DNA from: Loripinus fragilis
Taxonomy: Eukaryota; Mollusca; Bivalvia; Lucinida; Lucinidae
Assembly (NCBI GenBank): GCA_964019695.1
Contig: OZ026518.1
Span: 111,520,145 to 111,584,144 of the forward strand
DNA length: 64,000 nt
Direction of reading: 5' to 3'
The position numbers and the translations under genes were made by a program. The notes below the pieces were generated by a model that saw nothing but the letters and a program-made list of their open reading frames with translations, searched no databases and was not told where the DNA came from. This document shows, in pieces, positions 32,201-57,602 of the stretch. Numbering within the stretch: position 1 is the stretch's first letter; each line of letters opens with the position of its first letter.

Positions 32201-35200
32201 GTATTTCAATCAATAGTGTTTGGTTTGTAAGGTATTAACATGCTTAGAAATAAGAAAAGCCTGCTTAGTTCATTATTTTGTAGTTTAGGGGGTAGGGATA
32301 CTTATTTTGTAATATCTCACTAATTAGACGGTGAATTTTCTTTAAATTCTGTCATAATGCATCTTATATAATGATCACTTTCCTAAAAAAAATTGAGAAA
32401 AATTTATTTTTTTAAAGTATGTTTAAATATTGAATTATCAGTCAGTAATTGCTGAAAACGAATGCACAAATGTCGGTGAATGCTGGTTTGAAAGCGTGAT
32501 ATGAAGAAAAATACTTGTATAGCTGCAAAAGAATGGTTTGAGAAAAGTTCTTAATTATTAATGGCTTCGCATGCTTGTTTGAAATTACGATTTTCAGATA
32601 CAAAATTGAGTTACAGAATATTTTACTTGTCTTAATGAGTTTCCAAAAAGCTGCGTTAAAAAGCCAACATAGGCCATATAATGAAGAGCTGTAACTTTTG
32701 AACTGGACGGTAAATTTTCTTTAAAATGCGTTATTTTTCTTATAATATGATGTACTACAGAATATCAAAAAATGAAAAAAAATTATTTTTTGGAAAAAAA
32801 AATCGCCCAGGTGTGGGCAGTGACCTTAAGTGTAGAAAATAGCAGCAAAAATATAAATTTTCTGTACATTTTCTTTAGTAGGATTTTTTTTGCAAAAATT
32901 GTTAATTATGGCTATATGCTGTGTAGGTTGTTTTTGTAGGAAATCTTGATGAAATGTCTTGAAATTCCCATTATTTGATGACAAGCACTTAACAGCATGT
33001 GAATGAGTGATTTTTACCAAATTGAATTGCCTAATTGAACAAAAAATTCTCATTTTACTGTCATTTACCTCATTATTTTAGTAGAAGAGCTCTCAAAATG
33101 TTCATATTTTTAAAACAGGTGACTGAATCTCAATAAAATTTGCGTCGAAATGATAACACATGGTAAAAAAACTAAGCTACAAATCAATATGTGATATGTA
33201 AGCATGGATGTAATGGTTATCTATGTACAAAAATGGGCAAAAAATGAAGAAGGTGTGTTACCCTCCTTAGTTTGATTTGTTTATGTGTCAGATTTTGGAA
33301 CTAACAGGGCTAAGCCACATATAGAGTATTGCATACAAAGAAGTGACTTCACTTGCATAGTATTAATATAATTTTATTGCAGATTATTGGCCTTTTTGTA
33401 AGAAATGTCTGATCTAATACTAAGGAGTGTAACATTTTGTACAAATGCTTAGGTCTTCAAAAACCTATGAATTCTAGCTTTAACATTGACACAATTTCCT
33501 TTCTACTATTATATAAGAATCTCATAATCAGTGTTACAGCGCAAACAAAAATTGTCTCCCCAAGATCTTGAATTAGTGTGTTAAGATATGTTGAATGTTC
33601 TTTCTCTAAATGCTTAAACTGATTGCAAATAATATTTTCTTCTCTAATAATTTTAGCAATTGAACACTTCTGTATGTAACACACAATAAATACCATTTTA
33701 CTAGCCGCCAAAGGGAATAAAAAAAGTTTGGTTGCATACCAGTTTCTGATATTGATACTCCATTATGAACCAATAGAAAAGGTCCCTTTATATTTAGTTT
33801 CTCAATGATTTACCCCAAATGCTAATCAAGATTCAAAGAAATGCATCAAAAGAACTGTTCTAAATCTTGGAAATGAATGATCAGAGTCAATTAAAAGTGA
33901 AATATTGCTGGTTTGGAAAAGAAGAAGCTCTTAAATGGCATTACATCAAAAATCACTATGGAGTGTAACGCTTTATGTCGTGATGTCAAAGCAAAATATA
34001 AGCTTGGTTAGAAAATAGGATTATATTGGTCAATTTTATCTTTTTATATTTATCAGAACACATGATTTTCAAGAATAAATGTTGTCCTGAATGCCTAGAT
34101 AGGTAAAATTTCAAGAAAATGGATTGTCAAAATCACCAATTTTTAGGCGATTTCAATGCAGTACAGCTTTTTTTTACACTTTGAACATAAAAATGTGCTA
34201 CTAGAATTGTCTGAGGGACATTGCTCTATAGAAATAATGGTAAATAAATTGAAATTATACTGCTACTGGTATAGAAATAACCCACAGAAGTGTTTTGCCA
34301 TGGAAGCTCTATTATTGCACCCAGAACAGCCAAGCTCCATTATTGGACTCAGAAAGGCCGAACTCCATTATTTGACTCAGAAAGGCCAAGCTCTATTATT
34401 GGACTCAGTAAGACCAAGCTCTATTATTGGACTCAGAAAGGCCAAGCTCTATTATTGCACTCAGTAAGGCCAAACTCTATTATTGGACTCAGAAAGGCCA
34501 AGCTCTATAATTGCACTCAGTAAGGCCAAGCTCTATTATTGCTCTCAGACAGGCCAAGCTATATTATTGCACTCAGTAAGGCCAAATGTTGTCCTGAATG
34601 CCTAAATAGGTAAAATTTCAAGAAAATGGATTGTCAAAATCACCAATTTTTAGGCGATTTCAATGCAGTACAGCTTTTTTCTTACACTTTGAACATAAAA
34701 AGGTGCTACTAGAATTGTCTGAGGGACATTGCTCTATAGAAATAATGGTAAATAAATTGAAATTATACTGCTACTGGTATAGAAATAACCCACAGAAGTG
34801 TTTTGCCACGGAAGCTCTATTATTGCACCCAGAAAGGCCAAGCTCCATTATTGGACTCAGAAAGGCCAAACTCTATTATTGGCCTCAGAAAGGCCAAGCT
34901 CTATTATTGGACTCAGTAAGACCAAGCTCTATTATTGGACTCAGAAAGGCCAAGCTCTATTATTGCACTCAGTAAGGCCAAACTCTATTATTTGACTCAG
35001 AAAGGCCAAGCTCTATAATTGCACTCAGTAAGGCCAAGCTCTATTAGTGCTCTCAGACAGGCCAAGCTATATTATTGCACTCAGTAAGGCCAAATGTTGT
35101 CCTGAATGCCTAAATAGGTAAAATTTCAAGAAAATGGATTGTCAAAATCACCAATTTTTAGGCGATTTCAATGCAGTACAGCTTTTTTCTTACACTTTGA

Positions 35201-38200
35201 ACATAAAAATGTGCTACTAGAATTGTCTGAGGGACATTACTCTATAGAAATAATGGTAAATAAATTGAAATTATACTGCTACTGGTATAGAAATAACCCA
35301 CAGAAGTGTTTTGCCACGGAAGCTCTATTATTGCACCCAGAAAGGCCAAGCTCCATTATTGGACTCAGAAAGGCCAAACTCTATTATTGGACTCAGAAAG
35401 GCCAAGCTCTATTATTGGACTCAGTAAGACCAAGCTCTTGTATTGGACTCAGAAAGGCCAAGCTCTATTATTGCACTCAGTAAGGCCAAACTCTATTATT
35501 GGACTCAGAAAGGCCAAGCTCTATTATTGCACTCAGTAAGGCCAAGCTCTATTATTGCACTCAGTAAGACCAAGCTCTATTATTGCACCAAGAAAGGTCA
35601 AGCTCCATTATTGCACCCAGAAAGGCCAAGCTCTATTATTGAACTTAGAAAGGCCAAGCTCCATTATTGCACTCAGAAAGGCCAAACTCTATTATTGCAC
35701 TCAGTAAGGCCAAGCTCTATTATTGCACCCAGAAAGGCCAAGCTCCATTATTGCACCCAGAAAGGCCAAGCTCTATTATTGGACTCAGAAAGACCAAGCT
35801 CCATGATTGCACTCAGTAAGGCAATGCTCCATTATTGCACTCAGAAAGGCCAAGCTCTATAATTGCATTCAGTAAGGCCAAGCTCTATTATTGCACTCAG
35901 TAAGGCAAAGCTCTATTATTGGACTCAGAAAGGCCAAGTTCTATTATTGGACTCAGAAAGGCCAAGCTATATTATTTGACTCAGAAAGGCCAAGCTCTAT
36001 TATTTGACTCAGAAAGGCCAAGCTGTATTATTGGACTCAGAAAGGCCAAGCTCTATTATAGCACTCAGAAAGGCAGCATCTATTATAGCACTCAGAAAGA
36101 CCAAGCTCTATTATTGCACTCAGAAAGGCCAAGCTCCATTATTGCACCCAGATAGGCCAAGCTCTATTATAGCACTCAGAAAGGCCAAGCTCTATTATTG
36201 CACTCAGAAAGACCAAGCTCTATTATAGCACCCAGTAAGGCCAAGCTTTATTATTGCACTCAGTAAGGCCAAGCTCCATTATTGCACCCAGTAAGGCCAA
36301 GCTCTATAATTGCATTCAGTAAGGCCAAGCTCTATTTTTGCACTCAGTAAGGCCAAGCTCTATTATTGGACTCAGAAAGGCCAAGCTCTATTATTGGAGT
36401 CAGAAAGGCCAAGCTATATTATTTGACTCAGAAAGGCCAAGCTGTATTATTTGACTCAGAAAGGCCAAGCTGTATTATTGGACTCAGAAAGGCCAAACTC
36501 TATTATAGCACTCAGAAAGACCAAGCTCTATTATTGCACTCAGAAAGGCTGAGCTCCATTATTGCACCCAGATAGGCCAAGCTCTATTATAGCACTCAGA
36601 AAGGCCAAGCTCTATTATTGCACTCAGAAAGACCAAGCTCTATTATTGCACCCAGTAAGGCCAAGCTCTATTATTGCACCCAGTAAGGCCAAGCTCTATT
36701 ATTGCACCCAGTAAGGCCAAGCTCCATTATCGCACCCAGTAGGGACAAGCTATATTATTGCACTCAGAAAGGCCAAGCTCTATTATTACACTCAGAAAGA
36801 CCAAGCTCTATTGTTGCACTCAGAAAGACAAAGCTCTTTTATTGCACCCAGTAAGGCCAAGCTCTATTATTGCACCCAGTAAGGACAAGCTCTATTATTG
36901 CACTCAGAAAGACCAAGCTCTATTATTGCACTCAGAAAGACCAAGCTGTTTTATTGCACTCAGTAAGGCCAAGCTCTATTATTGCACCCAGTAAGGCCTA
37001 GCTCTATTATTGCACCCAGATAGGCCAAGCTCCATTATTGCACCCAGTAAGGCCAAATTCTATTAAAGCACTCAAAAAGACAAGCTCTATTATTGCACTC
37101 AGAAAAATCAAGCTCTATTATATCACTCAGAAAGGCCACGCTCTATTACAGCACTCAGAAAGGCCGAGCTCATTTGCACTCAGAAAGCGAGCTTTATTAT
37201 TGCACCACGAAAGGCCAAGCTCCATTATTGCTCTCAGAAAGGCCAAGCTCTATTATTGCACTCAGAAAGGCCAAGCCCTATTAATGCACCCAGAAAGGCC
37301 AAGCTCCATTATTGCACTCAGAAAGGCCAAGCTCTATTAAAGCACTCAGAAAGGCCAAGCTCCATTATTGCTCTCAGACAGGCCAAGCTTTATCATAGCA
37401 CTCAGAAAGACAAGCTCTATTATTGCACTCAGAAAGACCAAGCTCTATTATTGTTCTCAAAAAAGGTCAAGCTCTATTATAGGACTCAGAAAGGCCAAGC
37501 TCTATTATAGCACTCAGAAAGACCAAGCTCTATTAGTGCACTTAGAAAGGCTGAGCTCCATTATTGCACTTTGAAAGCCAAGCTTTATTATAGCACTCAG
37601 ACAGACCAAGCTCTATAATTGCACATCAGAAAAGCCAAGCTCCATTATTGCACTCAGAAAGCCAAGCTCTATTATTGCACTCAGAAAGGTCAAGCTCTAT
37701 TATAGCACTCAGAAAGGCAAGCTCTATTATAGCACTCAGAAAGACCAAACTCTATTATTGGACTCAGAAAGGCCAAGCTCTATTATAGCACTCAGAAAGA
37801 CCAAGCTCTATTATTGCACTCAGACAGACCAAGCTCTATTATTGCACCCAGTAAGGCCAAGCTCTATTATTGGACTCAGAAAGGCCAAGCTCTATTATTG
37901 CACTCTGTAAGGCCAAGCTCTATTATTGCACTCAGAAAGGCCAAGCTCTTTAATTGCACCCAGATAGGCCAAGCTCTATTATTGCATTCAGAAAGGCCAA
38001 GCTCTATTATTGCACCGAGAAAGACCAAGCTCTATTATTGCACTCAGTAAGGCCAAACTCTATTATTGGACTCAGAAAGGCCAAGCTCTATTATTGGACT
38101 CAGTAAGGCCAAGCTCCATTATTGCTCTCAGACAGGCCAAGCTCTATTATTGCACTCAGTAAGGCCAAGCTCTATTATTGCTCTCAGACAGGCCAAGCTC

Positions 38201-45716: not shown

Positions 45717-46133
45717 ATTATAATGGTAACATGATCTGGCGTACTGTATCACCTCCAGTGGATGAGGGTATACCATAGGATAAACCCAGACGTGAAGTGT
45801 TGAGGGTGACCCATTGGTAAAACCTCATCCACTACTAGACGTGATAATGTTCACCAGATCAAGTTATTATTATATGTTTATTATATACCTTTTTTCTCGC
45901 ATTATTCTGATTTTATAGATTGTTTGGTCTTTAATCCAGAAATATTGTGGGAACATTTGCCATTACGCTACCTTTCTTGACGTCATGTCATCAGGTTTTC
46001 TGTCTCTAGTTCCATGCTTGAAATTTACTTTACATAATGTAGCCGCAAAAACAGGTAACCGCTTTAGCCTCGTTTTAAAGGATAGTCATATGAATTTAGA
46101 AAACCTCAGTTTGTTGGACGGACCTTTCTGTAT
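45717..46133 (+). repeat. Host repeat interrupted by the LTR element (left part)
   Basis: Corresponds to the inverse of 8428-8820, including the terminal hairpin (CATGATCTGGCGTACTGTATCAC..). It stops exactly at the LTR with GTAT; the right part resumes at 57603. Confidence 0.85.
46130..46133. repeat. Target-site duplication GTAT (left)
   Basis: GTAT directly before the TG of the 5' LTR; repeated at 57599-57602. The paralogous unoccupied site has it once (8427-8430, - strand). Confidence 0.9.
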
Positions 46134-46825
46134 TGTAAAACAATCATGTCTAAATGATTATTTTTCTATATCAATTTCTTGAGAATTCTTGTTCACTACG
46201 ATACCTTTACTGAATAGATATCTGCAATTGTAATTAACTTTAATATGCCTTTCATGTCTAGTATCGCGAGTATTAATCTCTGTCCGATGTCCATAATGAT
46301 ATGATCAGATCTTTATGCTTCTTGGACATGTGCATACTTACTTTAAGATTCTTTTGAAATATTTAGTTCAAACGCTTTAATAGTGTCTGTTAAGACCATC
46401 AAATTCACATTAGCATGTATCATTATTTATATAGATGGTGTGCCGTTACTTCGTGATGCTAACAAGTATTTTAAAGGCTGTTTGACTGGACGATTAGATT
46501 CTAATTTGATTTTGATTATATTTGTACAACTGCTGTTATGTTATTGTAAATAAAGTTCGTTGCAGATCAAAAATCATATATTACAATTGTCCAGATGGAG
46601 CCAAGAACATCAATCACCTGATAAGATCGAATTACTTTTACAGCATGTTGTCTGCTTTATCAATCAAATGATCTCCGAGTATATAAATGGCAGTTCTCAG
46701 TTGATGGGTAGATTTTGGCTTTAGAATTTGGAACGGAATATTTGGCATATTTGAACAACAAAATTAAATGTATGAAATGTACAACGTCTTCAGTATTTAT
46801 TAAAGAACCTTGTCAGAGTGTTACA
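46134..46825 (+). repeat. 5' LTR, 692 bp
   Basis: Begins TGTAAAACAATC and ends GTGTTACA, so it has the TG..CA termini. It matches the 3' LTR (56120-57598) once the MITE and its TA duplication are removed: both are exactly 692 bp. No mismatch was seen by eye. Confidence 0.93.
46680..46687 (+). promoter_or_regulatory. LTR TATA box
   Basis: TATATAAA in the context CCGAGTATATAAATGG. It puts the transcription start near 46710, leaving a short R-U5 of about 115 nt. A candidate poly(A) signal ATTAAA follows at 46763-46768; an AATAAA at 46549-46554 lies upstream in U3. Confidence 0.6.
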
Positions 46826-46834
46826 ACTCTCTTT

Positions 46835-46852
46835 TGGTGCCGTGACCAGGAT
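46835..46852 (+). other. Primer-binding site, tRNA-His type
   Basis: TGGTGCCGTGACCAGGAT, 9 nt after the LTR. Its complement ends CACGGCACCA, matching the 3' end of metazoan tRNA-His as I recall it (acceptor stem GCCGTGA). A direct check needs this species' tRNA-His. Confidence 0.7.
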
Positions 46853-47042
46853 TATTACACAAATTCGAACGGGTTGAAAAGAACACAAAAACGGAACTAA
46901 CAAAAGTTAAATTTCAAGTGGATTTAATTAAAGATTAGACTTTGTTACTTGGATAATCAAAGAGGACTTGACTAAGTAGGAGCTGAATCGACTGATTGAA
47001 ACAGGTGAGAGTTTAGATTTGGTATTATCTCGATCTGTAAGA

Positions 47043-47990
47043 ATGGCTGAACAACAACCTCAACCAATGCAGCAAGAGGCTGAACTTATACATTTGTTCC
47101 GAAACGTTGCACAAGAAATTTCCGGGGTGCATACAACTATCGGGGCACAGGGGGTGGCAAAAATTATCACATCATACCAGGGCGATCCCAAGCAATGTAA
47201 GGAATGGCTAAAAAGTATAGAAAAATATGCAATTCTCACACAGTTAGGAGAAGATCAAAGGAAATTAGTTGCATATCAGGCTAGTAAGGGGGCAGTGAGT
47301 GATTTCATAAAACGGTATCTGCAAGATCATCCTAGACGTACATGGCAACAGCTACAGGAAGAAATAATTCTTCGATTTTCTGAAGTTACTGATCCGCAAC
47401 ATGCATTAATGCTGCTCAGGAAGGTGCGTCAAAAGGAAGGGGAATCAGTCCAAGTTTATGCTGAAAGAATAATGTCTTTAGCTGAGGATGCTTTTGGGGG
47501 GCAAGGTATGCAAAATCAAGCAATTCAGGATCAGCTGATTGGATTTTTCACTGATGGGCTGTCCCAAGACTTTATGAAAATGAAAGTAATGCGCGATAAC
47601 CCACGCAATTTCCAAGCTGCAGTTGACGTATCCCTAACTGAACAAAACCTACGAAAACGTTTCAATCTAAGGTCTGGTAAAAGTGAAGGTACATGGGGGA
47701 ATTCTTCTGGCCACCAACCAATGGAAGTAGATCACATACGCCCAGCACAACGTTGCTTCAAATGCAATAAAAAAGGCCACATAGCACGGGACTGCAGAGC
47801 TAAACCCAAGGTTAATGTAGTGCAAGGAAATCAACATGCAAGGGCTTCCAATATAATATGTTGGGGGTGCAATAAACGTGGGCATATTCTGCGAGACTGC
47901 AGACAAGAACAAGGCAATGGTTATGGGAACCAGGGACCAAATAGGTGGTACCACGGGTCTTCGGGAAACGCAACCGCTCCTTCCATGTAG
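47043..47990 (+). CDS. gag: Gag polyprotein, 315 aa
   Basis: The ATG at 47043 (MAEQQPQPM) is chosen. Residues 40-190 resemble the retrotransposon Gag capsid domain (YQGDPKQCKEWLKSIEKYAI, RQKEGESVQVYAERIMSLA). Two zinc knuckles of the form C-x2-C-x4-H-x4-C follow: CFKCNKKGHIARDC and CWGCNKRGHILRDC. This gene supplies the particle shell and binds RNA. It ends at a TAG (47988-47990) that falls in the loop of the frameshift stem; pol overlaps in the -1 frame. Confidence 0.93.
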   Translation: MAEQQPQPMQQEAELIHLFRNVAQEISGVHTTIGAQGVAKIITSYQGDPKQCKEWLKSIEKYAILTQLGEDQRKLVAYQASKGAVSDFIKRYLQDHPRRTWQQLQEEIILRFSEVTDPQHALMLLRKVRQKEGESVQVYAERIMSLAEDAFGGQGMQNQAIQDQLIGFFTDGLSQDFMKMKVMRDNPRNFQAAVDVSLTEQNLRKRFNLRSGKSEGTWGNSSGHQPMEVDHIRPAQRCFKCNKKGHIARDCRAKPKVNVVQGNQHARASNIICWGCNKRGHILRDCRQEQGNGYGNQGPNRWYHGSSGNATAPSM

Positions 47991-48006
47991 AGGCCGATGG
48001 GAGGGG
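47963..48006 (+). promoter_or_regulatory. Programmed -1 frameshift signal between gag and pol
   Basis: Slippery heptamer G GGA AAC (47963-47969), set in the gag frame exactly as the X XXY YYZ rule requires. After a 7-nt spacer comes a stem pairing CTCCTTCCAT (47977-47986) with ATGGGAGGGG (47997-48006): 10 pairs, two of them G-U, with a 10-nt loop that contains the gag stop codon. Slippage leads straight into the pol frame (GKRNRSFHVEA). Confidence 0.85.
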
Positions 48007-50842
48007 TAAAAACGTATCAACATACAAAATTTGTCTGGCCGGTAATCCTAATTCTTGCTTAATTAAGGTTGAAAAACAAAAATTTAGGGCCTTAGTAGAT
48101 TCTGGAGCCGATATATCATTGATTAGGCGGGACGTTTATGACTCTTTGAGAAGGAAACCAAAACTGATAAGACAACACACTAATGTTCAATCAGTAAATG
48201 GGGATCCACTGAAAATTGATGGCTACATCTATTTAAAATTTGTTATTGGTGGAACAACTATGACTCAACGATTTTATGTGTCAAGAAATATGAACAGAAA
48301 GGTAATACTGGGAAATGACTGGCTAACTGAAAATGGGGTGCGAACATATCATGACCTTGGGTGCTTAAGGGTCAATGGTACATATGTTCCACTACAAATG
48401 GACATACATGTTACTTCTACACTAAGAGCTAAAAACAAATTTCTTATGAAACCCCAAACAACAATTATATGCCAGTGCAAGGCGAGATCGACCCCTGACT
48501 TACCTGAAAAACAGTTGTATCAGATTGCTCCCACTGAGATTGGTTTTTTGAGCAACGAACCAGGTGTAATGGTATCAAATTCAATAGCAAAATTAGGCAA
48601 GAATAGGAATATATCTGTCATGATCGTAAACAACACAAACAAAACATATAAAATTAGAAAAGGGTGTGTCTTAGCAAAACTAGAAAAAATCGAAGATGAA
48701 CCTGTTATGTCTCTAAATGAAGTTGTTAAGCAGGACAGAAAAGTACAGCCTTTAAGCTTTGAAGAAATTAATGTACCTGAGCAATATGCAGATAAAATAA
48801 AAGAGGTCTTAACAAGAAACTCCGATATATTTGCCGAAAAGGATTCAGAATTAGGTCATACAAATGCCACCAAAATGAAAATAGATACTTCAGACCACCC
48901 TCCAATAAAACTAAGACCATATAGGGCACCCTTGAATAACAGAAGGGTAATTGACGAGGCTATAGATGAAATGCTTTCAGCTAAAGTTATTGAAAGGTCA
49001 AGTTCTCCATGGAGTTTCCCTGTGGTAATTGTTGACAAGAAAGATGGCTCAAAAAGATTTTGTGTTGATTTTCGCAAGTTGAATGCAATCACAAAACCCA
49101 TTTCTTATCCATTGCCTCTGATTGATGATATTCTGGCACAGTTAGGTCAAGCCAAATATTTCACTTCCTTAGATCTTAAAAGTGGATACTGGCAAGTCCT
49201 TATGGACGAAAATGATAAGGAAAAGACAGCATTTGCATGCCACCGGGCTCTGTTTCAATTTAATGTCATGCCATTTGGCCTAACTGCTGCTCCAGCAATA
49301 TTCCAAGAGCTGATGTCAAAGGTGCTGGAAGGTCTGGACCACTTTGCAACGGCATATTTGGATGACATTCTTATCTATTCCTCGACATTAGAGGAACATC
49401 TTAGACACATCCAAGAGGTATTTGATCGTCTCAGACAACATTGTCTTAAGTTGAAGCTTAAGAAGTGTTGTTTCATGAGAGCTGAAACGAGCTATTTGGG
49501 TTTTGTTATTAGTGAAAATGGCATAAAGCCAGATTCAAAAAAAGTTGAGGTTATACAAGCCTTACCTCCTCCAACGTGTGTGCGAGAGGTTCGCAGTTTC
49601 ATCGGTATGTGTAGCTACTACCGGCGCTTCATTCCAGAGTTTTCATCTATTGCTGAGCCCATCATTGCACTTACAAGAAAGTATGCAAAGTTTCATTGGG
49701 ATGCTCGATGTCAAAAAGCATTTGATTTCTTGAAGGGTCAGTTGTCATCTATTCCTATGTTAGCATATCCAGATACAACAAAACCATATGTGCTATATAC
49801 AGATGCTAGTGACCTTTGCATTGGTGCCTGCCTCACACAGCCATGTGATGAGAATATAGAAGAAATCAGGGGTCTGAAAAATGAAAAACCAATCTTTTAC
49901 TTATCTCACAGACTGAGTAAATCACAGGTCAAATGGTCAACTATTGAAAAGGAGGCATATGCAATCCATTTTGCATTACAGAAGTTAGATCATTACTTGC
50001 ATAATTCTGAATTTATCATACGCACAGACCACAAACCCCTGAAGTATATGCTTGAATCCCCAATGCAGAATAAGAAAATACAACTTTGGGCCTTGGGAAT
50101 TTCAGGATACAACTGTAGAGTAGAATACATTGAAGGCTCTTCAAATTCGTGTGCTGATATGTTGTCAAGGGTACCTGAAAATGGTACAACAATTAAAGAT
50201 GAAGGCTTAGATGAGCCTGATGTAAGTGACAATGCTTACGAAATCAATGCATTGAATTCAAACTGCTTTAGACCAAGGGATTTTGCAGTAAGTAAGGCAC
50301 CATTGCCTAAAGAGATTGGAAAGGCAGAACTTGACCCTGATATAGATATAGTTCAGGAGCAGGCTAAGGATGAAGCAATAGTAGCAATTATGAAGACCCT
50401 TAAAAAGGATGAAGTTCCATCCTCAATTGAGAAAAGGCACATTGTGATAGATGGTGTACTGTATTACATATCAAATGTTGATGATGACCCGGCATTGCGA
50501 ATGTACATACCAGAAAATCTAAAAGGTAATGTGGTTACTCAATATCATGACCACAATGGCCATATGGGTATCGATAAAACTTTCGAAACCATAAAGCAGA
50601 AATACTATTGGCCAAATATGTACAAGGAATTGTATGCATATGTAGAAAAATGCATTACCTGTCAGGCACGCAACATGCGGAAAATAAAAGCACCTGTGCA
50701 AGAAACAGGCATACCACCTTATCCGTTTGCAAAAATAGGGCTAGATTTGTCCGGGCCATACCCTACATCTCTGTCTGGAAACAAGTATATAATAGCCTTT
50801 ATTGATCTCTACAGTGGCTATCCAGAAGCTTTTCCCTGTTAA
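47965..50842 (+). CDS. pol: Pol, first part: protease, RT, RNase H, integrase N-terminus
   Basis: Made by frameshift from gag. Protease: FRALVDSGADISLI, with the active-site DSGA. RT: YWQVLMDENDKEKTAFAC, FGLTAAPAIFQ, and catalytic YLDDILIYS (about 49360). RNase H: YTDASDLCIGACL, then HFALQKLDHYLH and RTDHKPL. Integrase: zinc domain H-x-H-..-C-x2-C (HNGHMGIDKT..CITCQ), and the first catalytic Asp in GLDLSGPYP. The frame ends at TAA 50840-50842 because of a one-base change around 50837 in the integrase core; the rest continues in another frame. The lesion could be real or a sequencing error. Confidence 0.92.
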
Positions 50843-51695
50843 AAGTGCTGACAATGTTGTGCACCTCCTAATAGAGGAGATATTTCCAAGACATGGGGCT
50901 GTGCTAGAAATCGTGACAGACAATGGGGGCGAGAATGTGAATCGCAAAATGCAGGAGACCCTTCAGGCATTGAACATAAACCATGTGACAACCTCATTTT
51001 ATCATCCCCAAGGGAATGCTAAGGTAGAAAGATTCCACCGGACTCTGCATGATGTGTTGTCAAAGAAACTAAAAGACAATGTCCAAACCTGGGACCTACA
51101 TCTTAATCAGACACTTGCAGCAATCAGATTCAATGTTAGTGAATCGACAAAATTTTCACCATTCTTTCTGTTATATGCCAGAGATGTTGTTTTGCCTCTA
51201 GATAACATACTCAAACCAAGGAGAAAATACATGGGGGAAGACATGCACCAGATTGCTTTGGAACAGCAGCATAAAGCATTTACTTTAGTGCACAAACATC
51301 TCAGAAGATCCAAAAAGAGACAAGCAAAATATGCAAACAAGCATGCTCAAAACATTGAATATAATGTTGGAGATCCGGTCTTCTACAAAAATTTTGTTGT
51401 AGGAAAACTTGAAGGAAAACGTTGGTATCCTTACTACCGTATCATTAAGAAAACATCACCTGTAAATTTTGTCATTAGAAATCAATTAGATGGGACCACA
51501 GTGGATGTGCATGCCGAGAATATACGGCTGGCACACATTGATGAATGGCCATTGCCTGAGGCTGATACCGAACGACCTGTTCGAAGGACTGCATTTGTTG
51601 TTCCACCAACTGATAGTTCATCAGATTCCAATGATGAATCTTCTGGGGAAGAATCGCCCACTGATAAGATAGCCAAGCGCAATCGTGGAGAATGA
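50838..51695 (+). CDS. pol: Pol, second part: integrase core and C-terminus
   Basis: Continues the integrase one frame over: VTDNGGENV gives the second Asp and KVERFHRTLHD the Glu, with 35 residues between them (D,D-35-E). A GPY/F-like module follows (RWYPYYRIIKKTSPVNFVI). No chromodomain. An acidic Ser-rich tail begins (SSDSNDESSGEESPTDK). It stops at TGA 51693-51695, but the same frame carries on to 52028. It has no start codon of its own, so it depends on the first part. Confidence 0.9.
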   Translation, partial: VKSADNVVHLLIEEIFPRHGAVLEIVTDNGGENVNRKMQETLQALNINHVTTSFYHPQGNAKVERFHRTLHDVLSKKLKDNVQTWDLHLNQTLAAIRFNVSESTKFSPFFLLYARDVVLPLDNILKPRRKYMGEDMHQIALEQQHKAFTLVHKHLRRSKKRQAKYANKHAQNIEYNVGDPVFYKNFVVGKLEGKRWYPYYRIIKKTSPVNFVIRNQLDGTTVDVHAENIRLAHIDEWPLPEADTERPVRRTAFVVPPTDSSSDSNDESSGEESPTDKIAKRNRGE

Positions 51696-52028
51696 ACTGA
51701 GTCTGAAGATGAGGATGACATTCCTCTCATGGAACTTTCAAAGCGCATTAAAAAACAGAAAATAAGAGAAAATATTGGTGGCAAAAGATCACTTCCTGCA
51801 TCAATATCATCGCAAGAGGAAAGTGATATCTCAGACTCTAGGATCAGTGACAAAGAGGAGGACTCAATTTCCAATCAAGAGGATCAGGAAAATCCTGAGG
51901 AAATGTTGATTGATGAAGTCCACGCTTCTCCTCTTGAAAATTTTATTTCACAAGCAGGAAGTCTCAAGCATAAAGATACATCAAGGAAAGTCATAAACCT
52001 ACTGACTGCTGTTGTTGATATGTTATAA
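51696..52028 (+). CDS. pol: Pol acidic tail beyond an in-frame TGA
   Basis: In the same frame as the integrase C-terminus, separated from it by the single TGA at 51693-51695. It continues the acidic, low-complexity composition (TESEDEDDIPLMELSKRIKK) to TAA 52026-52028. Either pol was longer and gained a stop, or the stop is natural and this is relic or read-through sequence. Confidence 0.6.
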   Translation, partial: TESEDEDDIPLMELSKRIKKQKIRENIGGKRSLPASISSQEESDISDSRISDKEEDSISNQEDQENPEEMLIDEVHASPLENFISQAGSLKHKDTSRKVINLLTAVVDML

Positions 52029-52757
52029 AGGCTTCAGAATTTTGGGCGTCATGCATTACATCAAATTGACAAGGCTAATAATATAGCTAATACCTTTCAA
52101 TGTTGAAAGAGAATGTAGAATGTAAGATTACTTGATGGCTAAGCAAACGGTTTAACTTTTCAATGGTTCCTAAATGATTTCCCCCCATAAACATTGATTT
52201 ATTTAACAATGTTCTATACAACTTTTCCTAATTTCTATATATTTCATTGTAGTAACGATTGTTTAACCCAAAATCTAGACTATATGACAATAAAAAATGA
52301 AAACTAACTCCACTATCATCAAGTACTAAATCCAGGAAAGGTAAACTGTGCACAAAAGCACAATTGACCAACTTTTATTTCTTTCTAAAAATAATGGGCA
52401 TTTGCAAATGTAAATAGTCAAAGATCCTTTCGGTATTTTTTTTTCTAAAAATCATGGGCATTTGCAAATGTAAATAGTCAGTGATCCTTTCAGTACTTAG
52501 TGTCTCCGTAAGTCAAAAGCCTACAATACAAGGTGTCTATTCAAATATTAAGAACAATAACGTATGCAGAAAAAGAGTATGAAGCCTCAAATACCTTATG
52601 CGGATAATACATAAATGTGTCTTATACAGCAATGCGTATTATACGTGGTAGCGTGTTATACCGGGTGAAATGTAAACAAAAATAACTAGATAAATAAATA
52701 AATAGTAATGACAATAATAAATTTGGATCGTAAATTATCATAAATTATCTATTTTTC
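52029..52757 (+). other. Gap between pol and env
   Basis: AT-rich, no gene. It contains two head-to-tail copies of a 60-bp unit (52381-52440, 52441-52500; GGGCATTTGCAAATGTAAAT) and ends with a splice-acceptor-like sequence. Confidence 0.7.
52381..52500 (+). repeat. 60-bp tandem duplication inside the element
   Basis: TTTCTAAAAATNATGGGCAT.. occurs twice with a period of exactly 60 and a few differences. ATTTGCAAAT is an octamer-like palindrome. Confidence 0.9.
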
Positions 52758-52759
52758 AG
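52748..52759 (+). promoter_or_regulatory. Candidate splice acceptor for env mRNA
   Basis: TCTATTTTTCAG lies 2 nt before the ATG at 52762. Errantivirus and retrovirus env genes are expressed from spliced RNA. The donor was not identified. Confidence 0.5.
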
Positions 52760-52761
52760 AT

Positions 52762-52941
52762 ATGAAACTGCTGGCGACAATCACACTACTCTTTGGCTTA
52801 ACTAGGTCCTTAATTGTTAAAGACAATGTAGTATTTTACAAAGAAATGATGTTTCGACTACGCGTGCCAAATGGCTGGTCACATTTGTCCTTGATCTATA
52901 CCCATATAGTCAGTTCATCGAACTATATAAGGAAGATATAA
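52762..52941 (+). CDS. env: Env-like N-terminus with signal peptide (frame 1)
   Basis: Starts MKLLATITLLFGLTRS, a typical signal peptide, and continues with FRLRVPNGWSH. The frame then runs out at TAA 52939-52941. The main env body is in the next frame, and the switch falls within about 52884-52900, consistent with loss of one base. This is the N-terminal end of the surface portion. Confidence 0.75.
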   Translation: MKLLATITLLFGLTRSLIVKDNVVFYKEMMFRLRVPNGWSHLSLIYTHIVSSSNYIRKI

Positions 52942-54737
52942 AGAATGCTGCTGTCTTTGCTGAAACGGCCACAGCGTACTACAAACACACTGGTGAAAAA
53001 GAATACAGTGCAATATTTGGGAGTCTGTTTCAGGAAGTGCAGCACTTAAATGAAACTCAGTTGAGCATTCAGAGCAGTTTGATGGAATATAAAAGTCTGC
53101 ATAGTCTTACTAAGCGTTCGATCCTGCCCTTTGTCGGGAAAATACTATCATTTACATTTGGTACCCTGACGTCTCAAGATTTAAGCTCAATTCACAGTGC
53201 AATATCAAGCCTTAATGCCAATCAACAAAACATTTTGCATCTGGTTGAACAAAACTTATCTGTCCTAAACGTTTCTCGCGTTCAAATTGCAGAAAATCGA
53301 CAAGCTATCCTTGAATTGATAAAGAGCTTGCACAAATTGGATATAAAATTGAACAAGGCTGTCGAAATGCTAAATAAGGAAATATTTGGGCTGAAATATT
53401 TCTTGGAAATATACCTTCAGGTTGACGTGATTGTTGAAGAACTCAAAACAATGATGCAACGTGCCATGTTCCATTTAGAAACCCTTCGCATGCATCTTAA
53501 CCTCCTAAGCTTGAACCACTTGTCACCAACGACCGTTAGCCCAAGTAATCTACGGTCCGTGTTAAGTGACGTAAAATCGCATCTTCCTCCCACACTTACC
53601 TTCCCCATTGACCATAATCAAGACATTTGGTCATTTTACAAGAAGCTGTCTTGTAATGCCATATTGGACGGCAACAAGCTAATAATTATCATGGCAATCC
53701 CTCTTCTTGAAGTGAACGACATATTAGAGGTTTACGAGATATTTAATATCCCTTTGCCCGTTTCAGGCGGTTACAATTCAACCGATTTAACAGCACAATA
53801 TTCTCTTGAGGCTCAAGGACTAATGGTCGATAATAAGCGCACAAAATATGCATTACTTTCATCCGAAGAACTGGCTGTATGTGGAAATCCAATGCAAAAT
53901 TATTGTACTCAAAGGAGCCCGATATTTCCAATCAACTTATCCAAATTGTGTGTGGTTAATTTATTCCTTGGAAACGAAAGAAAAATAAAACGATACTGCA
54001 AGGCAATGGTATCTATCAACACTCGCCTTCCTAGCGCACATTACCTATTTAACAGCCAATGGGCAGTTGCGTCTCGAACAAATTTAACTTTCACAATTGT
54101 ATGTCACGGTAAAACCGGAGCAACACCTACGATAACAATAAGGGCACCCTTAGACGTGTTGCATCTAAAACAAACATGTATAGGGTCGAATGAAAACATG
54201 CTGCTTTCGTCATATTTCGATGGACAAAGCAATTACAATGTCGTCAATAAGGAAGCAGAAATCTTGCAGTTATCGAAAATTTCGAAATCTTTGATCTGGG
54301 CGCCTCTAAAAAGGCAACTTCCAAATTTAACGAAAATGGTTCTTCCCGATAGTCTGAGGAAACTTAAGCAAATACCTTTGGGGCAGTTTATTCAAAGTTT
54401 GACTCCGTTGCCTAAGGTTAATACCGAAACTGGGGGTTGGCCTGCATGGGCTATGTTTTCGATCATTACTGGGGTTTGCTTGTTATTGGGGGTAGTAATT
54501 GTAATTATGATACGATACCGGAACTTTTTGAGGTACCCTAGTTGTTTAGCCATTCGAGCTAGTCGTGATTTGAGTCAAATCGAGGCTCAAAACTGTGGAG
54601 AGAGGTCGGTTTCCGCTCAGAAAGGTCTGACTTCGACTGATGGAGGGCAATGTACCCCCGAACCGACGGATGTTCCTAGCGACGACGAAGGGACGAGTAA
54701 CCTTTATCCCAGGCTTGGGATTGTTCTGAAGAAGTAA
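52890..54737 (+). CDS. env: Env-like fusion protein body, F type
   Basis: Reads into QFIELYKEDIKNAA.. and then about 566 residues from 53037. A dibasic site TKR at 53109-53117 is followed by SILPFVGKILSFTFGTLTSQ, which has the shape of the fusion peptide just after the cleavage site in baculovirus F and errantivirus Env proteins. Next come a heptad-rich region, N-glycosylation sites, scattered Cys pairs (CGNPMQNYC), a transmembrane helix at about 54434-54515 (MFSIITGVCLLLGVVIVIMI) and a cytoplasmic tail of about 70 residues. The family role is membrane fusion. There is no ATG at the head of this frame: it is out of frame with the signal peptide. Confidence 0.8.
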   Translation, partial: LDLYPYSQFIELYKEDIKNAAVFAETATAYYKHTGEKEYSAIFGSLFQEVQHLNETQLSIQSSLMEYKSLHSLTKRSILPFVGKILSFTFGTLTSQDLSSIHSAISSLNANQQNILHLVEQNLSVLNVSRVQIAENRQAILELIKSLHKLDIKLNKAVEMLNKEIFGLKYFLEIYLQVDVIVEELKTMMQRAMFHLETLRMHLNLLSLNHLSPTTVSPSNLRSVLSDVKSHLPPTLTFPIDHNQDIWSFYKKLSCNAILDGNKLIIIMAIPLLEVNDILEVYEIFNIPLPVSGGYNSTDLTAQYSLEAQGLMVDNKRTKYALLSSEELAVCGNPMQNYCTQRSPIFPINLSKLCVVNLFLGNERKIKRYCKAMVSINTRLPSAHYLFNSQWAVASRTNLTFTIVCHGKTGATPTITIRAPLDVLHLKQTCIGSNENMLLSSYFDGQSNYNVVNKEAEILQLSKISKSLIWAPLKRQLPNLTKMVLPDSLRKLKQIPLGQFIQSLTPLPKVNTETGGWPAWAMFSIITGVCLLLGVVIVIMIRYRNFLRYPSCLAIRASRDLSQIEAQNCGERSVSAQKGLTSTDGGQCTPEPTDVPSDDEGTSNLYPRLGIVLKK

Positions 54738-55206
54738 ATGCTATATGTACCAATTTGTACCATAACTACGAAATCAGTGACTATGTGTGATTGACTGTTG
54801 CTTGCTAATTGGAGACTTTAATGAAGCTTTCATTGCTTTACCTCGCCGGTTCCCTATCTGTCGAAACAATTTGAGCGGCATTACTTGTTTATATAAACAC
54901 TTTCACAAACAATAATCCACTAACCAGTGGCTGAGATGCTGATTATCGCTAATGATATCCACATCAAGGGACAAGACGAAACTCACTATCTACAAACGAT
55001 CACGAACACTCTGACATCAAAGGAACATTTTCGATTTTGAATCCTAAACTGTTTTGAATCAAAACATTGAAAATTATATGTAAGAACCAAATTATGTGCC
55101 ACACCATTATTCCACCACAACGCCTTAACCGCTTCTACAACGTACACCAAACAGCAGAGAACTTTAAATTATTGGATAACTTTAAATTGTTGGATATCTT
55201 TTTATA
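54738..55206 (+). other. Spacer between env and the 3' ORF
   Basis: Non-coding, AT-rich; no motif recognised. Confidence 0.6.
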
Positions 55207-55698
55207 ATGGATACATTTATCATATATCATGAAGTGTTAATGAGCCTGACAGCACATATGCACAGGGAAACACCAATGAACCCTGAAGCCGTCGCGACTG
55301 AGGTCGCCACCAACCTGGACGCGCTGGGAGCTTTAATGAGCTCTAGAGATAACTCCCACTCCAGTGGACATGTAACTGTTTCGCCAGTGCCTACCAACGA
55401 CGCGGCGACCCAGTACGAAGGGGTGGATGTGGAAATCCAATGCAATCCAGAAAAACAGAAGGAACGGCCTGTTTGTATTGTTACGCCGCTTGGGTTTAGC
55501 GAGAGCTTCGCTAAGCCACAGACCACTTCAAATTCCGCAGCAGCAGCTGGGAACCAGAACCAGAACTTGACGTCACCTGTACCGGGACCAAGCGGAACGA
55601 CCAACGCACAACCAAGCGAGGTGGACAGTAACAGTAACTCTCCTCTTAGTTACAACAGTTATGAAATGATTTCTGACAGTGACGACGATGTGTCGTAA
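55207..55698 (+). CDS. Unrecognised 163-aa accessory ORF of the retroelement
   Basis: ATG at 55207 to TAA. The N-terminus is MDTFIIYHEVLMSLTAHMHR, then a Pro/Ser/Asn/Gln-rich middle (SPVPGPSGTTNAQPSEVDSN) and an acidic end SDSDDDVS. It has no transmembrane helix, zinc motif or family I recognise. Its base composition is richer in G+C than the flanks, consistent with real coding. It sits between env and the polypurine tract, where complex retroviruses keep accessory genes; that parallel is positional only. Confidence 0.6.
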   Translation: MDTFIIYHEVLMSLTAHMHRETPMNPEAVATEVATNLDALGALMSSRDNSHSSGHVTVSPVPTNDAATQYEGVDVEIQCNPEKQKERPVCIVTPLGFSESFAKPQTTSNSAAAAGNQNQNLTSPVPGPSGTTNAQPSEVDSNSNSPLSYNSYEMISDSDDDVS

Positions 55699-56104
55699 GG
55701 ACATGGCATTTACGTATAAATAATTGTGAAATCCGGATTATGTAAATATGTATATAAACAAATCGTATATATTGTGAAAAATGGAATTATACTGCTAACT
55801 GTATTTGAGACATGTGTGATCTGAACTGGATACCGTGCTATATTTATGTTTTAATCATGTATTTGTGTAGGATATTTCAGTGACAATGATTCGTTCGTGA
55901 GGAACGCTTTAAATTAACCTTAATGCATGTAAGATTTTTCAAACTTAATTGCATGCTTTTATTCATAGAAATGTTACGGCAATGTTTAAAATCATCAAAA
56001 AGCAAGGTACAATTTTACAAGTTATGACTGTAAATTATTTCGATACATTTTAGGATATATTATTTTAAATTTTTAAAAGACAAGAAAACGTATCAAGAAT
56101 TCTA
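55699..56104 (+). other. 3' untranslated part of the retroelement
   Basis: AT-rich, no gene, ends at the polypurine tract. Confidence 0.6.
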
Positions 56105-56119
56105 AAGATGGGGAGGAAA
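56105..56119 (+). other. Polypurine tract
   Basis: AAGATGGGGAGGAAA lies directly before the TG of the 3' LTR, the expected plus-strand primer position. Confidence 0.85.
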
Positions 56120-57598
56120 TGTAAAACAATCATGTCTAAATGATTATTTTTCTATACCCAACAAAAAAAGAAACGCACCACTTAGAACTGTTCAACTCTC
56201 AGAAAGATCACAAGTGATAGGCCGGTTTAGTTTATATCAGTGCAAAGGTATGCCAGGTGTTGCTGCGTTACATGTATTTTGCAATCAGGCGTCGAAATTG
56301 TGTTAAAGAAAATTGGCCATGAACCAAGTGGGGGTCAAATTGTAAAGTCACAGGAAATAAGTGTTTTAATTATGCTCTCTTGCTGGATAAGTTCAAGCAA
56401 TGAGAATCATCTCAGTAGGCCAAATTGTACGCAGACACTTCTTCTTTGCAAATTCTATCTTTAAATTCATCTTACGCGATAATTGAACGCTAGGTAGCTC
56501 ATGTATTGTGACTACCCTTTGGATAACGATTCCATACTGGAGATAAACCTTAAAACATTTTAAGATTTCAACATTGTTTTTAATCAATGCAAACGGTCCT
56601 AACTGGTGAAAATGGATTTAGGAATAACAAAAAATGCATCAATAAACACATTGGTTGTCTCACATAACGACAGCGTATCGTTTTCATACTTTGCAAAAGT
56701 GAAACATGCTCGAATTCCATATAGACAGTAGCGTTGAAATACGCTTCAAACACTCGTTTATCATTCGCTTTGATATGTTTTGTGGATACAAATGGAAGGT
56801 ACAGATACTCATCTACGTCACACTCAAGTTTTAGTAAAATTTGCTCAGAAATGAATATTTCATGACAATTAACATTTTCGTATTATAAGGAGATCTTAAT
56901 GGGAAAATCATAGTGGTGCGTTTCTTTTTTTGTTGGGTATATATCAATTTCTTGAGAATTCTTGTTCACTACGATACCTTTACTGAATAGATATCTGCAA
57001 TTGTAATTAACTTTAATATGCCTTTCATGTCTAGTATCGCGAGTATTAATCTCTGTCCGATGTCCATAATGATATGATCAGATCTTTATGCTTCTTGGAC
57101 ATGTGCATACTTACTTTAAGATTCTTTTGAAATATTTAGTTCAAACGCTTTAATAGTGTCTGTTAAGACCATCAAATTCACATTAGCATGTATCATTATT
57201 TATATAGATGGTGTGCCGTTACTTCGTGATGCTAACAAGTATTTTAAAGGCTGTTTGACTGGACGATTAGATTCTAATTTGATTTTGATTATATTTGTAC
57301 AACTGCTGTTATGTTATTGTAAATAAAGTTCGTTGCAGATCAAAAATCATATATTACAATTGTCCAGATGGAGCCAAGAACATCAATCACCTGATAAGAT
57401 CGAATTACTTTTACAGCATGTTGTCTGCTTTATCAATCAAATGATCTCCGAGTATATAAATGGCAGTTCTCAGTTGATGGGTAGATTTTGGCTTTAGAAT
57501 TTGGAACGGAATATTTGGCATATTTGAACAACAAAATTAAATGTATGAAATGTACAACGTCTTCAGTATTTATTAAAGAACCTTGTCAGAGTGTTACA
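56120..57598 (+). repeat. 3' LTR, interrupted by a MITE
   Basis: LTR sequence 56120-56154, insertion 56155-56939, LTR resumes at 56942. Without the 785-bp MITE and one copy of TA it is 692 bp, like the 5' LTR. Confidence 0.93.
56155..56939. mobile_element. 785-bp MITE with 28-bp perfect TIRs in the 3' LTR
   Basis: TIR begins TACCCAACAAAAAAAGAAAC and continues GCACCACT; the right end is its exact inverse. The target duplication is TA (56153-56154 and 56940-56941), as in Tc1/mariner. There is no transposase; the short frames inside are insignificant. It inserted after the retroelement did. Confidence 0.9.
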
Positions 57599-57602
57599 GT
57601 AT

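Follow-up and report, generated by a model that had tools for sequence, protein, structure and literature searches.

An env-bearing Ty3/gypsy retrovirus-like element with a conserved gene downstream of env in the Loripinus fragilis genome

We analysed a window of 64,000 nucleotides (nt) from Loripinus fragilis (contig OZ026518.1, positions 111,520,145 to 111,584,144), in which a retrovirus-like element occupies positions 46134-57598. A sequence-only reading had described it as a near-complete env-bearing Ty3/gypsy element, and the anatomy of its long terminal repeats (LTRs) and its domain content bear this out; "intact" would not apply. The outer coordinates claimed in that reading agree with the LTR ends found here. 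Two features go beyond it: an insert nested in the 3' LTR, and breaks in both pol and env. The TG...CA ends, 4-bp duplication, primer-binding site and polypurine tract that it named are all present, and gag, pol, an F-type env and one more open reading frame (ORF) were all recovered by family profiles and ORFs. The features, in window coordinates and with lengths in base pairs or amino acids (aa), are as follows.

46130..46133, + strand: left target-site duplication, GTAT (sequence)
46134..46825, + strand: 5' LTR, 692 bp, TG...CA (BLAST and sequence)
46835..46852, + strand: primer-binding site TGGTGCCGTGACCAGGAT, beginning 9 nt after the 5' LTR
47002..47010, + strand: candidate splice donor CAG/GTGAGA (47005), in the leader between the primer-binding site and the gag ATG (consensus score 27.5 of 28.5)
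47043..47990, + strand: gag, 315 aa, two CCHC zinc knuckles (ORF and profiles)
47945..50842, + strand: pol, first open part, with protease, reverse transcriptase (RT), RNase H, integrase zinc domain and the start of the integrase core (ORF and profiles)
47963..47969, + strand: GGGAAAC slippery heptamer, candidate -1 frameshift site into pol, in the gag frame and in the right phase for a -1 shift
50796..51695, + strand: pol, second part, in another frame, with the rest of the integrase core, a PYY (GPY/F-like) motif and an in-frame stop at its end (profiles and alignment)
51696..52028, + strand: pol C-terminal tail past the stop (110/110 residues the same as in the relative P0042)
52378..52497, + strand: 60-bp tandem direct repeat, two copies, 90% identical, in the noncoding pol-env spacer (repeat search)
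52745..52759, + strand: candidate splice acceptor, a CAG following a run of T; its end, TTTTTCAG, lies 2 nt upstream of the env ATG (pyrimidine fraction)
52762..52842, + strand: env signal-peptide part, 27 residues, with a frame change after it (ORF and alignment)
52821..54737, + strand: env main part, F-type fusion glycoprotein (profile, alignment and predicted structure)
55207..55698, + strand: 3' ORF, 163 aa, candidate conserved accessory gene (ORF and relatives)
56110..56119, + strand: polypurine tract GGGGAGGAAA, adjoining the 3' LTR
56120..57598, + strand: 3' LTR, TG...CA, split by a nested insert (BLAST and sequence)
56155..56939, no strand assigned: nested insert of ~0.8 kb in the 3' LTR, resembling a miniature inverted-repeat transposable element (MITE), with 28-bp perfect terminal inverted repeats and a TA duplication
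57599..57602, + strand: right target-site duplication, GTAT (sequence)

The primer-binding site TGGTGCCGTGACCAGGAT is one that we take to be tRNA-His-like; no tRNA genes were found in the window, and an Rfam scan of it gave no match at gathering score. BLAST yields the LTR pair as two blocks of 659 bp and 37 bp, each 100% identical, because the ~0.8-kb insert splits the 3' LTR. Once the insert is skipped the LTRs are identical at 692 of 692 positions, and the element was therefore inserted recently. With zero differences over 692 sites, divergence between the LTRs is at most 0.0043 per site (95% bound); if 2-4e-9 substitutions per site and year are assumed, the element would be about 0.5 to 1 million years old at most. 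The insert is present in the 3' LTR only and is thus younger than the element, so the MITE family behind it was recently active. A TA duplication with inverted ends is the mark of a Tc1/mariner-type MITE, and the longest stop-to-stop frame inside the insert is 100 aa.

Gag carries two CCHC (zf-CCHC) stretches (3.6e-9) and matches Retrotrans_gag (1.4e-5). Pol, overlapping gag in the -1 frame, matches profiles for protease (9.3e-9), RVT_1 (2.1e-27), RNase H (8.9e-31) and the integrase zinc domain (3.6e-21). Among solved RTs the best match is that of Ty3 (1.1e-39), followed by the next kind at 6e-32 and by others at 8e-16 or weaker. The rve profile scores 2.1e-5 in the broken pol piece, below the cut-off there, and 1.2e-11 in the open relative P0042.

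Three lesions interrupt the window copy: the frame changes within the integrase core, pol meets a stop close to its end, and env changes frame after residue 27, past the signal peptide. Against P0042 and P0004, both predicted as a single open frame, the pol and env pieces show 98.6-100% identity, and open versions therefore exist elsewhere. This near-identity and the identical LTRs would also fit a window copy that is in fact whole, its lesions being sequencing or assembly errors, but there are three separate lesions and one is a stop codon rather than an indel, so we regard such errors as a rather unlikely cause. Judged from its reading frames, the window copy cannot on its own yield complete pol or env products.

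How would the open versions be expressed? Gag-Pol may arise at the GGGAAAC heptamer; a frameshift-stimulating RNA structure after it was not supported, the downstream stem being no more stable than shuffled sequence (z 0.07). The leader donor was scored with a home-made consensus (maximum 28.5), by which a second candidate donor at 47424 reaches 27.0. The candidate acceptor has a pyrimidine fraction of 0.60, against 0.27-0.53 at the other AGs scored, and env is presumably spliced from the leader donor to this acceptor before its ATG. Splicing is likewise described for the env of insect errantiviruses, and in some subclades the exon used lies ahead of gag (PMC12992720).

The main part of env matches the Baculo_F profile at 1.4e-13 and contains a KR/S cleavage-like place, a hydrophobic fusion-peptide-like stretch, a long helix region, a transmembrane anchor and a tail reading LYPRL. 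The predicted structure (P0004, model m57433a65d1bd, of middling quality) has a fold that matches baculovirus F and pneumovirus F, and the viral structure matches also include glycoproteins of chu-related and other insect RNA viruses. Going by this model, Env belongs to the F-type, class I fusion proteins. A furin site RX(K/R)R precedes the fusion peptide in 15 of 22 scored relatives, and the window family reads LTKR; the count leaves out three of the 25 rows: P0028 lacks the region, P0027 gave a spurious match, and P0026 escaped the pattern although RQKR stands there in the alignment. A conserved (L/I/M)YPxL motif stands at the end of the env tail in 11 of 25 rows (P0004 and relatives), while neither gag nor the 3' ORF has a late-domain motif among the patterns tried. 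The best query TM-score (0.46) among the 50 viral matches listed for the Env model belongs to an uncharacterized abalone herpesvirus protein, A0A145VUZ2; the envelopes of these retroelements may thus have a related F-type glycoprotein in a molluscan herpesvirus.

The earlier reading had considered that all other copies might lack the env segment. This did not hold, as env relatives form 25 protein clusters, one of which (P0004) has 141 member sequences; scoring in this protein search was limited to the 7993 candidates with the most words in common, and env-less copies lie outside its reach. Because 17 of the 25 clusters are at least 650 aa long at identities down to 28%, env is, on the sequences of these relatives, a maintained gene in the element family. 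Env might instead be a passenger, an old and unused capture in an element now spreading only inside cells. The env of the window copy is indeed broken, and large clusters are also expected of env-less superspreaders. Against this, the 16 clusters besides P0004 of at least 650 aa, at 28-74% identity, keep conserved cysteines, the cleavage place and the transmembrane segment, and an unused gene would not remain open at such divergence, which makes a passenger env improbable.

Downstream of env lies the extra 3' gene of the sequence-only reading, both present and conserved: its relatives form 11 protein clusters at 46-98% aligned identity, with 52 member sequences in P0030. It matched no family in Pfam or NCBIfam, its best E in a PDB profile search was 0.53, and in pairwise comparison it showed no relation to pol or gag (probabilities 0.14% and 0.70%). 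Overall, the conserved gene downstream of env matched nothing known in family libraries, one PDB search and one protein search, with no literature search aimed at it. Structure prediction gave a poor model (pLDDT 43.9) in which two helices stand at the N-terminus. The lack of a known family and the poor model could point to a frame open by chance or to regulatory sequence rather than a gene, as could an overlapping 140-aa antisense frame and the shortness of six of the 11 clusters (<150 aa). We consider this very unlikely, given the identities across all 11 clusters and the five full-length ones (P0029, P0030, P0031, P0033, P0035) that share the same start and acidic end. The pattern of conservation also speaks for a gene: residues 1-46, 84-101 and 140-163 of P0030 form islands that are 82, 88 and 88% identical between pairs of four full-length lineages, whereas the linkers are 57 and 53% identical. 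Three conserved islands amid variable linkers, together with the poor model, are the pattern of a mostly disordered protein working via short motifs.

The longest contig has the same size (845,128) for env cluster P0007 and 3' ORF cluster P0035, so the two are probably one element in a sister lineage; they are 86% and 66% identical, respectively, to the proteins of the window family.

Pol relatives number 4981, of which 120 were listed, and P0042 alone has 185 member sequences. Eleven of the 120 carry a source name: six are labelled as metagenome-assembled genomes (MAGs) of Ca. Thiodiazotropha, and the other five comprise three JGI hypothetical proteins, one pseudoscorpion and one fish. The sole named env relative of the 25 is likewise labelled a Ca. 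Thiodiazotropha MAG. Ca. Thiodiazotropha are described as symbionts of lucinid clams, so these labels likely reflect host DNA in those bins, and they lend indirect support to the bivalve host proposed from sequence. No DNA loci of relatives were found in viral contigs (single env and env alignment, pol alignment, 3' ORF) or in genome contigs (pol alignment).

The window very probably holds a recent, defective copy of an env-bearing Ty3/gypsy retrovirus-like element (Metaviridae) whose family belongs to bivalve-type animals; for this family we propose the following mechanism. The LTR would drive genomic RNA, on which a host tRNA would prime reverse transcription at the primer-binding site. Gag-Pol would be made via the -1 frameshift at GGGAAAC, and Env from a spliced RNA with its donor near 47005 and acceptor near 52759. 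Env would let particles of open relatives enter new cells, and integrase would insert the DNA, leaving the 4-bp duplication. The 163-aa product of the 3' ORF, small and mostly disordered, may act on host factors through its three short conserved motifs, a role that can be likened to that of the accessory proteins of complex retroviruses.

It is possible, if doubtful, that the open members are, in bivalves, true complex retroviruses that fall outside Retroviridae. As metavirids they would combine an entry protein with a dedicated accessory protein, and selection would keep them because of their passage from cell to cell and perhaps, through the water, from animal to animal. A family that has both env and a second conserved 3' gene would mean that Metaviridae, like Retroviridae, evolve accessory genes beside env. 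Horizontally spreading retroelements in bivalves are already of interest, and since the insertion is recent and open relatives exist, expression and function can now be tested in these animals.

Elsewhere in the window, a 415-aa open frame at 2895-4142 matches RVT_1 (9.3e-30) and by appearance belongs to a non-LTR element, and a 28-bp tandem array spans 34304-38745, with ~123 copies in its main block (35320-38745).

So, where does the element belong? The protease-RT-RNase H-integrase order, an RT nearest that of Ty3, and the LTRs, primer-binding site, polypurine tract and short target duplication are features of Metaviridae (Ty3/gypsy). Its gene order and F-type env are also those of the insect genus Errantivirus, which would permit a strict-sense member of that genus that moved to a mollusc. 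The markers given in PMC2774666 for several errantiviruses are a Gag without CCHC arrays, KPT in the integrase GPY/F module and a TIHG-type protease flap. By contrast, the window Gag has its two zf-CCHC stretches, and both P0042 and the window read WYPYY in place of KPT, in a module located by position and pattern rather than by profile. The protease flap reads SVNG by eye, nearer the GANG type than TIHG, its position taken without alignment. On the Gag and integrase markers, membership in the strict sense seems highly improbable.

The sequence-only reading had taken an env-bearing gypsy element outside insects as possibly new, and this did not stand for the kind as such. Chary and Hayashi (2025), as cited in PMC12859917 and PMC13172572, found envelope-carrying gypsy elements ("metazoan errantiviruses") widespread across metazoan phyla, with 289 representatives. 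Since such elements are reported from many phyla, the kind is already known, and the conserved gene after env is the part that our family, PDB and protein searches matched to nothing known. Like the window element, the metazoan errantiviruses combine a Ty3/gypsy pol with an envelope gene outside insects. The insect errantiviruses (gypsy, ZAM; iERVs) share with it the gag-pol-env order and an Env related to baculovirus F, and their env comes from spliced RNA (PMC12992720), as would that of the window element; the window element departs from them in having two CCHC knuckles in Gag, PYY rather than KPT, and a conserved gene that follows env. In predicted fold, the window Env resembles baculovirus F and pneumovirus F, and baculovirus F also through the Baculo_F profile, but identity in the structural alignments is 7-16% and the window gene sits in a retroelement. 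TelKA and Vesta/Juno of bdelloid rotifers are LTR elements of retrovirus-like type too, and carry either an env resembling paramyxovirus F or another ORF3 (PMC5408684); there, as described, the third ORF is env or another type depending on the family, whereas the window element has env and a further gene together.
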